Positions 6,925-37,441 of a stretch of DNA of 64,000 bases are shown in pieces; the stretch's first letter is position 1, and every line of letters starts with the position of its first letter. A program made the translations under genes and the position numbers. The stretch spans positions 1-64,000 of the forward strand of contig SZXX01000026.1 of the NCBI GenBank assembly GCA_005843825.1. Reading direction: 5' to 3'. The notes under the pieces were generated by a model. The model was not told where the DNA came from. It saw only the letters and a list, made by a program, of their open reading frames with translations, and did no database searches. This DNA is from Chlorobium sp. (GTDB lineage: Bacteria > Bacteroidota > Chlorobiia > Chlorobiales > Chlorobiaceae).

Positions 6925-8283
6925 TTAGAAGCTTGCCCTGACAGCCAGAGCGAAAGTGTTCTGATTGGTTACGCCTGTCACTGCGTTAACAGTTCTCTCT
7001 TTAGTGAAATAGGTGTAGGTTCCTGTGAGTGAAACAGCGGGCGACAACCATGCGGAAATCGCAGGCGCTATTGTTGGCTGATGCACGTCATAAGGTGTTG
7101 CTATTTTACTTGCATTTGCGATGTCCGAGTAAGAGACTTTTGCAAAAAGCCAGGAGTACATGAAGTATCCAGCTTCAACCTTGAAGTTGTTGAGTTGCAG
7201 ATCACGGTCATGGCTTACAGCTACACCAATCTGAAAGTCTTTATAGACGCCCTGGATATCACCACCGTAGACTAAGGATTCTCCAGTATAATTGCCGGTA
7301 AATCCAATTGTCGGAATGATTTTAGTTGTTGGATCAGCTACGCCGCTAATGCTGTTTTTGGCGTAAGTGAGTCCGCCTCCGATGACGATTTGGTTGTCCA
7401 GACCGGTATAGGGGTTGCCGAGTTCTCCATTGGCGCCGCTGAGCAGGCCTGCACCGAAGAGCTTATATTTTCCACGAAGATAAAGCAGATCGTCAATGGT
7501 ATTTGAAGTTGCAACTATAGGAGTCGTGGTTTTAGCTGCCATGCTGGTACCTGCAGTAAGGGAGTATCCAGCAATCTCTCCTCTTGTGAAGTTGATTTCA
7601 GCGTAGGTTGCCGGAGAAGGTAGTACACCCGAAACATTTACTACGCCACCAACGCCTACACCATTCCATGTAACATTGCTGAAACTGTTGCCGAGAGCCA
7701 GGTTAAGGCCTGGAGAAAATTGCCAGACTGCCCTTACATTAGACGAAACAGGAGTATCAACAGTAGAAGTTGTTGTCGCATCCTTGTCGGTTTCCACAGC
7801 AGCACCGCCAAATCCATTTATTTCACCGAATATCGTTAGATGCTCACCTACTGAGCCGCCAAAAAAAAGCGAAGCTACATTCGGGGCGTTGTACGTAAGC
7901 TCTTTCCCTGAAACGGTAGTGCCGTCAGGTTTGTGTGTCGGTGCTTTATAACTGATCAAATTGCCGCTGAAAGCAAGGCTTAATGGATCAAAAGAAGGGT
8001 AGGAGCTCTCGACAGGTGCTCCAAGGGTTTTTTTCCATTCCTCATTACCAATCTTGACCTGCTGTTGACGGGTAAACGCCTCTTCAACGCCCGATGGCAT
8101 ACGATACCCGTTGTTTTTGAAGGCTTCACCGACAGCATTCCGCTGCGGCATACCAGAGTGACACATCAGACAGGAGGTCTGGTACTTCCTTCCCCAAGAT
8201 GGTATAGCCTGGCTCTCTGAGCTCCAGAACAGAATTGGCAGCATACATAGTGTCGCAATAGATGCAAATGTCATTTTCCTCAT
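6925..8283 (-). CDS. Outer-membrane porin fused to a monoheme cytochrome c (Cyc2-like architecture)
   Basis: This 452-residue protein has a signal peptide (cleaved near residue 26 after SQA), then a short mature N-terminus with a single CLMCH heme site (Cys38, Cys41, His42). The block PQRNAVGEAFKNNGYRMP follows, and then about 370 residues of alternating beta-strand sequence rich in Gly, Ser, Thr and aromatic residues ending in Phe, typical of an outer-membrane barrel. One heme at the entrance of a barrel is the architecture of Cyc2, which moves electrons from extracellular Fe(II) to periplasmic carriers. A paralogue lies at 36065. The gene is divergent from a cytochrome c5 that could be its periplasmic partner. 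The architecture is directly visible; substrate and membership of true Cyc2 are inference. Confidence 0.75.
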   Translation of the reverse strand: MRKMTFASIATLCMLPILFWSSESQAIPSWGRKYQTSCLMCHSGMPQRNAVGEAFKNNGYRMPSGVEEAFTRQQQVKIGNEEWKKTLGAPVESSYPSFDPLSLAFSGNLISYKAPTHKPDGTTVSGKELTYNAPNVASLFFGGSVGEHLTIFGEINGFGGAAVETDKDATTTSTVDTPVSSNVRAVWQFSPGLNLALGNSFSNVTWNGVGVGGVVNVSGVLPSPATYAEINFTRGEIAGYSLTAGTSMAAKTTTPIVATSNTIDDLLYLRGKYKLFGAGLLSGANGELGNPYTGLDNQIVIGGGLTYAKNSISGVADPTTKIIPTIGFTGNYTGESLVYGGDIQGVYKDFQIGVAVSHDRDLQLNNFKVEAGYFMYSWLFAKVSYSDIANASKIATPYDVHQPTIAPAISAWLSPAVSLTGTYTYFTKERTVNAVTGVTNQNTFALAVRASF

Positions 8284-8338
8284 AAGAGAGTCTCTCCGTT
8301 GTTTGATTGTTATGATTGTTATGTTTTAGCAAAAAAAA

Positions 8339-8365
8339 AGAGCTCCTCGATAAAAGAGTAGCTCT
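8339..8365 (-). terminator. Terminator-like hairpin in the 5' leader of the cytochrome-porin gene
   Basis: On the minus strand a 10-bp stem with one mismatch (AGAGCTACTC / GAGGAGCTCT) is followed by nine T residues, about 50 bases before the porin start at 8283. No leftward gene lies upstream that it could end. It could be an attenuator or the end of a small RNA. Confidence 0.5.
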
Positions 8366-8499
8366 GAAAAAAATCAGAAAAACAAATTTTGATCAATTAT
8401 GTGCTCACGAACCTGAATAGTGGGCCGTTTCGTGAAATATCAAGGCTGATGTTGATGACCCTTAAACCCCCCGAAAATATTCAACAGGTCAAACTAAGC

Positions 8500-8527
8500 T
8501 TGACTAAGATAAAAAAATATGTAAAAT
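8500..8527 (+). promoter_or_regulatory. Candidate promoter for cytochrome c5
   Basis: TTGACT (8500-8505) and TAAAAT (8522-8527) are separated by 16 bases and lie about 120 bases before the cytochrome start at 8646. Confidence 0.4.
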
Positions 8528-8645
8528 ATATATAAAAAATTCTTTAATAATTCTTTAAAAATTATTAGGAACCTTCGTGCAGATTTCTAAATTATTAGTC
8601 GATTTTGAAAACAACCAACCATTAATCATTTCCGGGATACAGTTT

Positions 8646-8969
8646 ATGTCACGATTTTTTTTAGTAATAGTGTTGTTAGCATTGAGTTTCAGCGATGCTA
8701 TGGCGGCCTATGATCTCAATTCTGGTAAGGCGGTTTACGATAAAGCCTGTATAGTCTGCCACAAGACAGGCATGGGTGGAACACCAAAACTCGGCGACAA
8801 AGCGGCATGGACTCCGCGTATTGCACAGGGCATGGATCTGTTAATAAGCAAATCCATCAAGGGTTTTCAGGGCAAAACAGGGCTGATGCCGGCAAAAGGT
8901 GGCAATCTTGAGCTTACGGATGCTCAGATCGGTAACTCTGTAGCCTATATTGTTGAGCATAGCAAGTAA
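8646..8969 (+). CDS. Periplasmic monoheme cytochrome c5-type protein (copy 1)
   Basis: This 107-residue protein has a signal peptide ending in AMA at residue 20, a CIVCH heme site (Cys35, Cys38, His39), and a MPAKGGN segment whose Met81 is the likely sixth ligand. The layout K-TG-x-x-G-x-P-x-x-GDKAAW...RIAQG is that of cytochrome c5. The frame is open upstream to a GTG at 8577, but ATG 8646 gives a normal signal peptide and matches the MSRF start of its paralogue at 16304. It is divergent from the cytochrome-porin gene and probably accepts electrons in the periplasm. A hairpin follows the stop. Confidence 0.85.
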   Translation: MSRFFLVIVLLALSFSDAMAAYDLNSGKAVYDKACIVCHKTGMGGTPKLGDKAAWTPRIAQGMDLLISKSIKGFQGKTGLMPAKGGNLELTDAQIGNSVAYIVEHSK

Positions 8970-15974: not shown

Positions 15975-16304
15975 TTACTTGCTTTGCTGAACGATATAGG
16001 CGACAGCATTACCGACCTGGGCATCAGTCAATTTCGGATTACCACCTTTTGGCATCATCATCCCCTTTTTCCCCTGGAATCCTTTAATTGACTTACTCAC
16101 GAGTATAGCCATGCCTTGAGCAATACGTGGAGCCCATGCTGCCTTGTCACCGGTTTTTGGAGCACCCATCAAGCCGGTTTTATGGCAGGTAATACAGCTG
16201 ACATCATAAACAGGTTTGCCTGCACTGGCATTATACGCAGCAACTGCATCCCTGGAAGAAATAAGAATGGCACAAAGGAGAGCTAGAGGCAGGAAACGTG
16301 ACAT
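15975..16304 (-). CDS. Periplasmic monoheme cytochrome c5-type protein (copy 2)
   Basis: This 109-residue paralogue of the protein at 8646 has a signal peptide starting MSRF, heme site CITCH (Cys37, Cys40, His41), the GDKAAWAPRIAQGMA helix, and MMMPKGGN as the probable Met ligand segment. The ATG is preceded by a GGGGGT purine run. It begins an operon with an exported HAD phosphatase and an alpha/beta hydrolase. It probably carries electrons in the periplasm. The two copies are similar along their full length but clearly diverged at the nucleotide level, so the duplication is not recent. Confidence 0.85.
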   Translation of the reverse strand: MSRFLPLALLCAILISSRDAVAAYNASAGKPVYDVSCITCHKTGLMGAPKTGDKAAWAPRIAQGMAILVSKSIKGFQGKKGMMMPKGGNPKLTDAQVGNAVAYIVQQSK

Positions 16305-36064: not shown

Positions 36065-37441
36065 ATGACAAAGAATGCCGGGCCGGTTTCGGCCATCAGA
36101 AGTAAAAAAAGGTGTAGTTTTATTTTCCTCTTGTGTAGTATGGTATCTCTTATTGTTTTATCGGCGCAGGATAGTTTTGCTTTGCCGGTATTCGCACGAA
36201 AATACCATACCGCATGTTCCACCTGCCATATAGCATTCCCTGCCAGAAACGGTTTTGGCGAAGCTTTCCGTAACAACGGTTATCGCTTCCCTGATGGCAC
36301 CGATGAAGATATGGTAAAGGAAGAACCGATCAAGCTTGGTCAGGACGCCTATAAGGATGTCTTCCCTGATGCAATCTGGCCTTCTGATTTGCCAAATATG
36401 CCCTCTCTTGGTTTCCTGGCAAGGAGCGGAGGCTCGTTGAAAAAGAGCCCGACTACCGGGTACAGGAATGTGGATGTCAATTCCTCAGTTGATATGTTTT
36501 TTGCCGGGACGATAACCAGGCAGTTGAGCTATATCGGCGACTTGAACTTTGGTACTGATCCTACAACTCTTGGACGCCTGCAGTTGCTCTGGACGTTCAA
36601 ACCCGGGATCGGTATTGCATGGGGAGATATTGGCTTTCCGGAACAGTTTGACTTGATTTCAACCACACCTGGCGCTGACCTGAATGGTTATGCAGTAACC
36701 CTCCCGAATCCCAACAAAGGGATTGAATTAAGGATTGCCGGGAATACAGGAACCTGTGGAGGCTATTCGTTTCTTGCTGGAATCGGCCGGAATTCTCAGT
36801 TCGGTGCAGCTGGTTTCGACAACGTTTCAGGCAATTTTGCAGATACCAGATTTGTACGGGCAACCTACAAGGTCGGTGGCAACGGTTTGATGAGTGGGGT
36901 CGGCGGGTCCTATGGCGTTCAGGCTATAGGAATGGACAACTCTGTAACTTTCGGCGTTGATTATGTCAATTCAGGTCAAGGTGCGAGCACTGGTTCTGGA
37001 GATGCCTATGCAGGTTTGACTAAAACAGCTTACTCCGGTGATGTGCGGATTAATTACGGGTCATTGCGTGCTGTCGCACAGTATGCCCGCTTTAATGAAG
37101 TGGTCAATGATGGAGTGTTGGCTGGTGCCGCGGATGATGGTTCCGATATTGCAATAGGCGGCAAGGATTTTGGTAAACGCTCAGCTCTTTCTCTTGAAGC
37201 GGACTACTGGATCTATCCTTGGCTTTTTGGACTTGTTCGTTACGAGCATCTCCAGGATGATTTTAACGGAAAGATCAACAAGGTTATTCCTGGTATCGGG
37301 GCCTTGCTTAGACCGAATGTCAAGTTTGGTATTGAGTATGTTGCTGTTACAAAAGAGGCGTCTACTATCGCAGGTGCTTCCTCGGCGGCCTTTGATCAAG
37401 CAGCCAACTCAATATCCCTCTATACCCAGGTTGGCTTTTAA
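36065..37441 (+). CDS. Outer-membrane porin fused to a monoheme cytochrome c (second copy)
   Basis: This 458-residue paralogue of the protein at 6925 has a signal peptide of about 39 residues, then LPVFARKYHTACSTCH with one heme site (Cys51, Cys54, His55). The shared block PARNGFGEAFRNNGYRFP follows, and then a long beta-barrel sequence with Phe at the C-terminus (TQVGF). ATG 36065 has AACGGAGAGAGT upstream; a further ATG at 36005 is in frame but unsupported. It stands alone with a strong terminator. Heme position and barrel match the Cyc2 design for electron exchange with extracellular donors; the natural donor is not known. Confidence 0.78.
   Translation: MTKNAGPVSAIRSKKRCSFIFLLCSMVSLIVLSAQDSFALPVFARKYHTACSTCHIAFPARNGFGEAFRNNGYRFPDGTDEDMVKEEPIKLGQDAYKDVFPDAIWPSDLPNMPSLGFLARSGGSLKKSPTTGYRNVDVNSSVDMFFAGTITRQLSYIGDLNFGTDPTTLGRLQLLWTFKPGIGIAWGDIGFPEQFDLISTTPGADLNGYAVTLPNPNKGIELRIAGNTGTCGGYSFLAGIGRNSQFGAAGFDNVSGNFADTRFVRATYKVGGNGLMSGVGGSYGVQAIGMDNSVTFGVDYVNSGQGASTGSGDAYAGLTKTAYSGDVRINYGSLRAVAQYARFNEVVNDGVLAGAADDGSDIAIGGKDFGKRSALSLEADYWIYPWLFGLVRYEHLQDDFNGKINKVIPGIGALLRPNVKFGIEYVAVTKEASTIAGASSAAFDQAANSISLYTQVGF

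Follow-up and report, generated by a model that had tools for sequence, protein, structure and literature searches.

A gene for a fused cytochrome-porin, here termed porA, and a divergent gene for a cytochrome of the c-555 (c5) type were identified in a 64,000-nucleotide stretch of DNA from a Chlorobium sp. (hereafter the window). The pair probably forms a route for electron uptake, PorA being an outer-membrane conduit of the Cyc2 kind and of a separate lineage that passes electrons via the linked c-555 to the reaction centre. This explanation, the best of those considered, is supported by the architecture of PorA, by the homology of its heme domain, and by a c5 gene and a TlpA-DUF4266-DUF3570 block that are exclusively common to PorA and canonical Cyc2. 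The features of porA and its product are:

6925-8283, minus strand: porA, an ORF for a fused monoheme cytochrome c/beta-barrel porin of 452 aa
8206-8283, minus strand: putative signal peptide, residues 1-26 (SESQA^IPS), assigned by eye from the sequence
8158-8172, minus strand: CLMCH heme-binding site, residues 38-42
8095-8208, minus strand: cytochrome domain signature A-x-P-x-W-G-R-K-Y...CxxCH...P-x-x-N...NGYRMP, residues 26-63, homologous to the N-terminus of Cyc2
6928-7983, minus strand: predicted beta-barrel (AlphaFold2 and Foldseek), residues 101-452, with 16 predicted strands and a C-terminal Phe

The PorA chain starts as MRKMTFASIATLCMLPILFWSSESQA^IPSWGRKYQTSCLMCHSGMPQRNAVGEAFKNNGYRMP... 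and ends in LAVRASF, the last residue being Phe. As proposed in the initial annotation, a single heme site, CLMCH, is located at the start of the mature chain; it is the only CXXCH of the ORF, lies near the N-terminus after the signal-peptide-like start MRKMTFASIATLCMLPILFWSSESQA, and is not a chance occurrence, since all 54 homologues retain C38, C41 and H42. The PorA alignment showed no conserved Met or additional His that could serve as the sixth heme ligand. Structure modelling, suggested as a check on the barrel, predicted a 16-strand porin fold: AlphaFold2 with 54 aligned relatives placed 16 strands across residues 101-451 (mean pLDDT 71, pTM 0.72), confidence being mostly low for residues 1-98 (the heme domain), and Foldseek searches with the model returned 16-strand general porins (BpsOmp38, E 4.9e-10; OmpU, PorB and OmpF). 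The claimed barrel was thus recovered as a prediction, with a length of about 350 instead of about 370 residues, and the claimed fusion of cytochrome and porin holds in that one CXXCH and a predicted 16-strand barrel are present in one chain. Sequence searches with PorA produced no Pfam family, no NCBIfam match above cut-off and nothing usable in PDB, and its 90-95% orthologues were found within uncultured Chlorobiaceae.

The divergent gene, the region between the two genes and the other c-555 copy of the window comprise the following features:

8646-8969, plus strand: periplasmic monoheme cytochrome of 107 aa, a cytochrome c-555 paralogue, with CIVCH at 8748-8762
8284-8645, no strand: intergenic control region common to the divergent pair
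8500-8527, plus strand: sigma-70-like promoter site facing the c-555 gene (TTGACT-16-TAAAAT)
8331-8365, minus strand: terminator-like hairpin followed by a T-run in the porA leader (AGAGCTACTC-TTTTATC-GAGGAGCTCT-T8), read from the sequence, about 55 bases upstream of the ATG
15975-16304, minus strand: second c-555 copy, with no porin adjoining

The neighbour of porA had been described as a periplasmic monoheme c5 on the opposite strand with a shared control region, and both parts of this description were borne out. The 8646-8969 protein is a clear member of the cytochrome c-555 (c5) family of green sulfur bacteria by homology (PDB 4j20, E 7.5e-38, residues 21-107 aligned; Pfam Cytochrome_CBB3, E 3.4e-12), and has one CXXCH, a signal peptide and a mature domain of about 87 residues; its true start is very likely ATG 8646 and not GTG 8577. 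Unlike a general c-555, it is a diverged extra copy, linked to porA and 66% identical to the other copy in the window, and in a c5 tree it forms its own clade with other porA-divergent copies (support 100/100). The 15975-16304 copy is probably the general c-555, a role that we infer. The closest clade, of which the window is one of six members, keeps the divergent layout throughout. The promoter-like site matches the consensus at 10 of 12 positions, such sites occurring in the region at near chance number. The leader hairpin was present in the same six closest-clade members (the window and L003-L007), with a consensus stem of 9 pairs, one of which is altered on both sides; there is no gene upstream on the porA strand within the intergenic region, yet the hairpin is kept in six genomes, and from its sequence it looks like a transcription attenuator of the porin gene. 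An Rfam search of the window gave no match.

Relatives of PorA were sought in 86 Chlorobiaceae genomes and found in 58, where they sorted into the PorA clade, a mid group (mid_M), a far group (far_B) and a set of very weak N-terminal matches, the last being canonical Cyc2 with a c5 gene upstream. Canonical Chlorobium Cyc2 and PorA were separate clades (SH-aLRT 100), with tree support of 99 for PorA, 100 for canonical Cyc2 and 100 for far_B, the mid group being weakly supported. The hallmark of the PorA clade is a W that replaces F in the motif before the heme. When group profiles were compared with HHalign, the cytochrome domains of PorA and canonical Cyc2 were homologous (prob 98.2, E 4e-14), and no homology was detectable between their barrels (prob 1.45); both domains were common to PorA, mid_M, far_B and non-Chlorobi FARKY-type proteins. 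The proposed search with a Cyc2 profile, built here from 22 Chlorobium Cyc2, matched all 26 PorA proteins (window PorA, E 3.4e-7), with the match to the window PorA covering only residues 5-63 (iE 8.7e-7). The suggested resemblance of the NAVGEAFKNNGY block after the heme to Cyc2 was thereby upheld, the heme-domain homology including NAVGEAFKNNGY.

Cyc2 has been defined by AXPXFAR[Q/K][T/Y] before the heme and PXL after it (Keffer et al., PMC8406198). At the first motif PorA has AIPSWGRKY, with F changed to W and A to G (its orthologues have WARKY, WSRKY or WGRKY), and in place of PXL it has PQRN. By broader standards PorA is similar to Cyc2, with one N-terminal CXXCH, a homologous cytochrome domain, and 16 predicted strands in 452 aa (about 16 strands and at least 365 aa being expected); the full-length homology that marks Cyc2 cluster 1, the Chlorobium Cyc2 clade, was not found. 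Like these canonical proteins, PorA has a signal peptide, one N-terminal CXXCH, a fused porin and a c5-type neighbour; unlike them, it carries SW[AGS]RKY and PQRN (Cyc2: [FY]ARQT and PLLN), stands in a separate clade and has a barrel without detectable homology to theirs. Membership of canonical Cyc2, which the initial annotation had left unproven, was accordingly rejected on the basis of the tree, the published motif and the barrel comparison. With cluster 2/3 Cyc2 and Leptospirillum Cyt572, a low-identity family united by the cytochrome domain, PorA has in common the fused monoheme cytochrome-porin layout. FARKY-type relatives from Ignavibacteria, Acidobacteria and others fit the published Cyc2 motif, and PorA, unlike cluster 2/3 Cyc2, has W-[AGS] for F-A and no PXL, a distinction drawn by motif. 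PorA was not filed as Cyc2 because both published motifs are missed, though its architecture is Cyc2-like; judged by its sequence, it is Cyc2-like in architecture and heme domain and distinct from the Cyc2 of photoferrotrophic Chlorobium.

Gene neighbourhoods were compared for 22 PorA, 22 canonical Cyc2, 31 mid_M, 14 far_B and 19 non-Chlorobi loci. A c-555-type gene was present within 400 bp at 14/22 PorA and 21/22 canonical Cyc2 loci, and at 0/31 mid_M, 0/14 far_B and 0/19 non-Chlorobi loci; the suggested pairing with a c5/c-555-type carrier was therefore conserved and, among the five cytochrome-porin groups, specific to PorA and canonical Cyc2. The eight PorA loci with no c-555 nearby belonged to one subclade. 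While the c5 gene was upstream in 21 of the 22 canonical Cyc2 loci, the c-555 gene of the window is divergent and not upstream in an operon, and the layouts of PorA pairs as a whole varied (divergent, downstream or upstream). The PorA-linked carriers came from several places in the c5 tree, that is, from several separate pairings. Some PorA loci match canonical Cyc2 loci in their c5 lineage and in having TlpA-DUF4266-DUF3570 downstream: the upstream c5 proteins of PorA and 12 c5 proteins of canonical Cyc2 formed one clade (100/99) and were co-directional with the porin in both, and TlpA-DUF4266-DUF3570 was directly downstream at 12/22 PorA and 4/22 Cyc2 loci and in no other group. PorA and Cyc2 therefore occupy the same operon slot, which is the strongest argument that PorA does Cyc2's kind of work.

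Divergently upstream of 13 PorA loci were ResB-CcsA genes (System II cytochrome c maturation). One locus read fully (L113) had CcsA-ResB divergent to c5-PorA-TlpA-DUF4266-DUF3570-Ig-like-ApbE-DsbD, and in genome G034 (L035) c5-Cyc2 preceded the TlpA-DUF4266-DUF3570 block. This block, which immediately follows some Cyc2 genes and PorA genes other than the window's, is part of the DsbD-TlpA-DUF4266-DUF3570-ApbE flavinylation system, the published flavinylated DUF3570 being from Chlorobium luteolum (Meheust et al. 2021, PMC8238504). PorA of the window's clade is not joined to the block and has c-555 as its only partner; unlike at other PorA loci, the flavinylation-system genes (TlpA-DUF3570-ApbE-DsbD) of the window's genome are on another contig, C12, and not beside porA. 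PorA genes with a downstream c5 had a divergent two-component system (L262:6371-8556, L263:5319-7486 and L062:2855-5058), and since the L062 response regulator scored best, below cut-off, with the heavy-metal (CopR/CzcR) family, this score suggests metal-controlled expression. Genome G070 encodes a 380-aa protein with 14 CXXCH sites (L262:1939-3078) roughly 6 kb away from its second PorA gene. Broken PorA copies were seen in close relatives (G075:C227:148-1229 and G060:C51:21566-22920), and G075 had seven cytochrome-porin matches altogether, some of them fragments.

The window holds one further cytochrome-porin:

36065-37441, plus strand: cytochrome-porin of the far_B group, about 458 aa (ALPVFARKY...CSTCH), 30% identical to PorA (E 4e-29)

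This protein has the Cyc2 AXPXFARKY motif, belongs to a clade with support of 100 and has a barrel predicted with low confidence. Conserved neighbours of far_B were a LysE-type gene, a Rieske/flavodoxin-like fusion and a UbiA-like prenyltransferase (the last two named partly by eye), and c-555 was never beside far_B loci. The mid_M cytochrome-porin gene comes first in an operon, divergent from ResB-CcsA (L035:3192-10484 and L257:4100-9499), whose further genes encode a Rieske protein, a 2[4Fe-4S] ferredoxin, a split cytochrome b and a cytochrome c with eight hemes. Most of these genes were present in about 19 of the 31 loci; going by gene content, the operon could possibly encode an outer-membrane-to-quinone chain, which is not known to have been described. 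The octaheme gene of this operon was not found in the window's genome.

The window's genome (2.55 Mb, 98% complete) has six c5 copies and a [NiFe]-hydrogenase, and neither a canonical Cyc2 nor, above cut-off, dsrA was detected in it, which makes PorA and its c-555 the best candidate entry point for extracellular electrons to the reaction centre. Contig ends (the start of C33, with ResB/CcsBA, and the end of C12) interrupt in this genome the electron-transfer island seen in other Chlorobium, and a third cytochrome-porin could therefore hide in the assembly gap; no cytochrome-porin was present in the slot before TlpA on C12. Across the genus, PorA was found in 27 and Cyc2 in 22 of 65 genomes. 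PorA was carried by 15/22 genomes without and 12/43 with dsrA (p 0.003), PorA or Cyc2 by 20/22 and 21/43, respectively (p 0.0009), and 9 of the 11 genomes with neither dsrA nor Cyc2 had PorA; far_B showed no such trend (p 1). The association of PorA with dsrA absence was not significant for independent pairs on a gyrB tree (in which row G030 had an absurd branch length, probably from a misframed back-translation, and a meaningless placement), and was not used as proof because it lost significance once relatedness was controlled.

In green sulfur bacteria c-555 carries electrons to the reaction centre. In the proposed mechanism, one electron would pass from a soluble extracellular donor with access to the pore to the PorA heme, which, near the mature N-terminus, would sit either within the 16-strand barrel or at its periplasmic face; the c-555-type carrier encoded by the divergent gene and dedicated to PorA would accept this electron and deliver it to the photosynthetic reaction centre. 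We infer the outer-membrane location, the heme loading, the inward direction and the reaction centre as sink, and by gene context electron uptake is the best reading. Speaking against it are the lack of a conserved sixth-ligand residue, the eight PorA loci with no c-555 close by, the mostly low model confidence of the heme domain and the dsrA association that loses significance on the gyrB tree. The initial annotation named iron, sulfur or minerals as candidate donors; the most likely ones would be Fe(II) or reduced humic substances, and another cell is a further candidate; in Trout Bog Lake, Chlorobium with Cyc2 homologues were abundant and the water was oxidised in response to sunlight (PMC12285243). 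The proposed role is that of an outer-membrane electron conduit like PioAB/MtoAB, which have a separate decaheme cytochrome and a larger barrel where PorA has one heme fused to a 16-strand porin; no multiheme gene is next to porA in the window.

That PorA is strictly an Fe(II) oxidase, and the organism a photoferrotroph without Cyc2, is rather unlikely: the heme-domain homology, the equivalent operon slot and the undetected dsrA would agree with it, and a Mariprofundus Cyc2 homologue does oxidise iron, but Keffer et al. warn that function is uncertain for homologues distant from those tested (PMC8406198), the strict motif is missing from PorA and its barrel shows no detectable relationship to that of Cyc2, and the Trout Bog study prefers humic substances, acting directly or indirectly, as donor for lake Chlorobium (PMC12285243). 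Somewhat short of an even chance is the possibility that PorA belongs to the cluster 3 type of Cyc2 and has been included as a Cyc2 homologue in published screens, which is a rival in naming only and compatible with the uptake conduit. Both domains are indeed common to PorA, mid_M, far_B and the FARKY-type proteins, and the three Cyc2 homologues reported for Trout Bog Chlorobium (PMC12285243) would be consistent with such a count; in the GSB-B genome analysed here, one canonical, one mid_M and one far_B protein were found. The filter of the published tree, PXFAR[Q/K][T/Y], however, excludes PSWGRKY and PSWARKY.

The DsbD-DUF3570-ApbE genes beside other PorA loci count against the uptake reading, since they fit export as well as import. 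On this main opposing reading PorA would be an electron exporter, moving periplasmic electrons (from c-555, or from DsbD/TlpA/flavinylated DUF3570 where present) to an external acceptor, for example Fe(III) for iron uptake. TlpA-DUF4266-DUF3570 at 12/22 PorA loci, with ApbE and DsbD also at L113, the iron-assimilation role suggested for the DsbD-DUF3570-ApbE system (Meheust et al., PMC8238504), and the FeGenie category of Cyc2 cluster 3, 'probable iron oxidation and possible iron reduction' (PMC7005843), all point this way. We nevertheless regard export as improbable, given that PorA of the window's clade stands outside that gene cluster with a c-555-type protein as sole partner, that canonical Cyc2, an uptake protein, occupies the same cluster, and that System II cytochrome c maturation also uses TlpA, DsbD, ResB and CcsA. 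An ordinary solute porin, its heme domain serving as a structural element, sensor or gate and its c-555 adjacent for shared regulation only, would explain the resemblance of the barrel to general porins and the subclade without c-555 close by; it is improbable in view of the C, C, H and surrounding signature, invariant in 54 homologues, and of the repeated, group-specific re-pairing with c-555-type genes.

Fused cytochrome-porins are already known, and a c5 gene adjoining Cyc2 in Chlorobium, a linkage re-derived here from gene neighbourhoods, has previously been reported. What appears to be new in the open literature is the separate PorA clade, the partner and slot that it alone has in common with Cyc2, and its occurrence in genomes where neither Cyc2 nor dsrA was detected. 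Tentatively, green sulfur bacteria may have a second family of electron-uptake porins that replaced or joined Cyc2 in its operon slot and several times recruited its own reaction-centre-type carriers; if so, many lake Chlorobium that fail strict Cyc2 screens would live by photoferrotrophy or by light-driven use of reduced humics. Cyc2 serves as a marker for photoferrotrophy in green sulfur bacteria, and the strict Cyc2 motif would miss PorA, which is as common in the genus. PorA may let cells without Cyc2 draw electrons from outside, and if it does Cyc2's job, Chlorobium able to use extracellular electrons are undercounted and the donor of lake populations without sulfur-oxidation genes would be directly testable via one gene pair.
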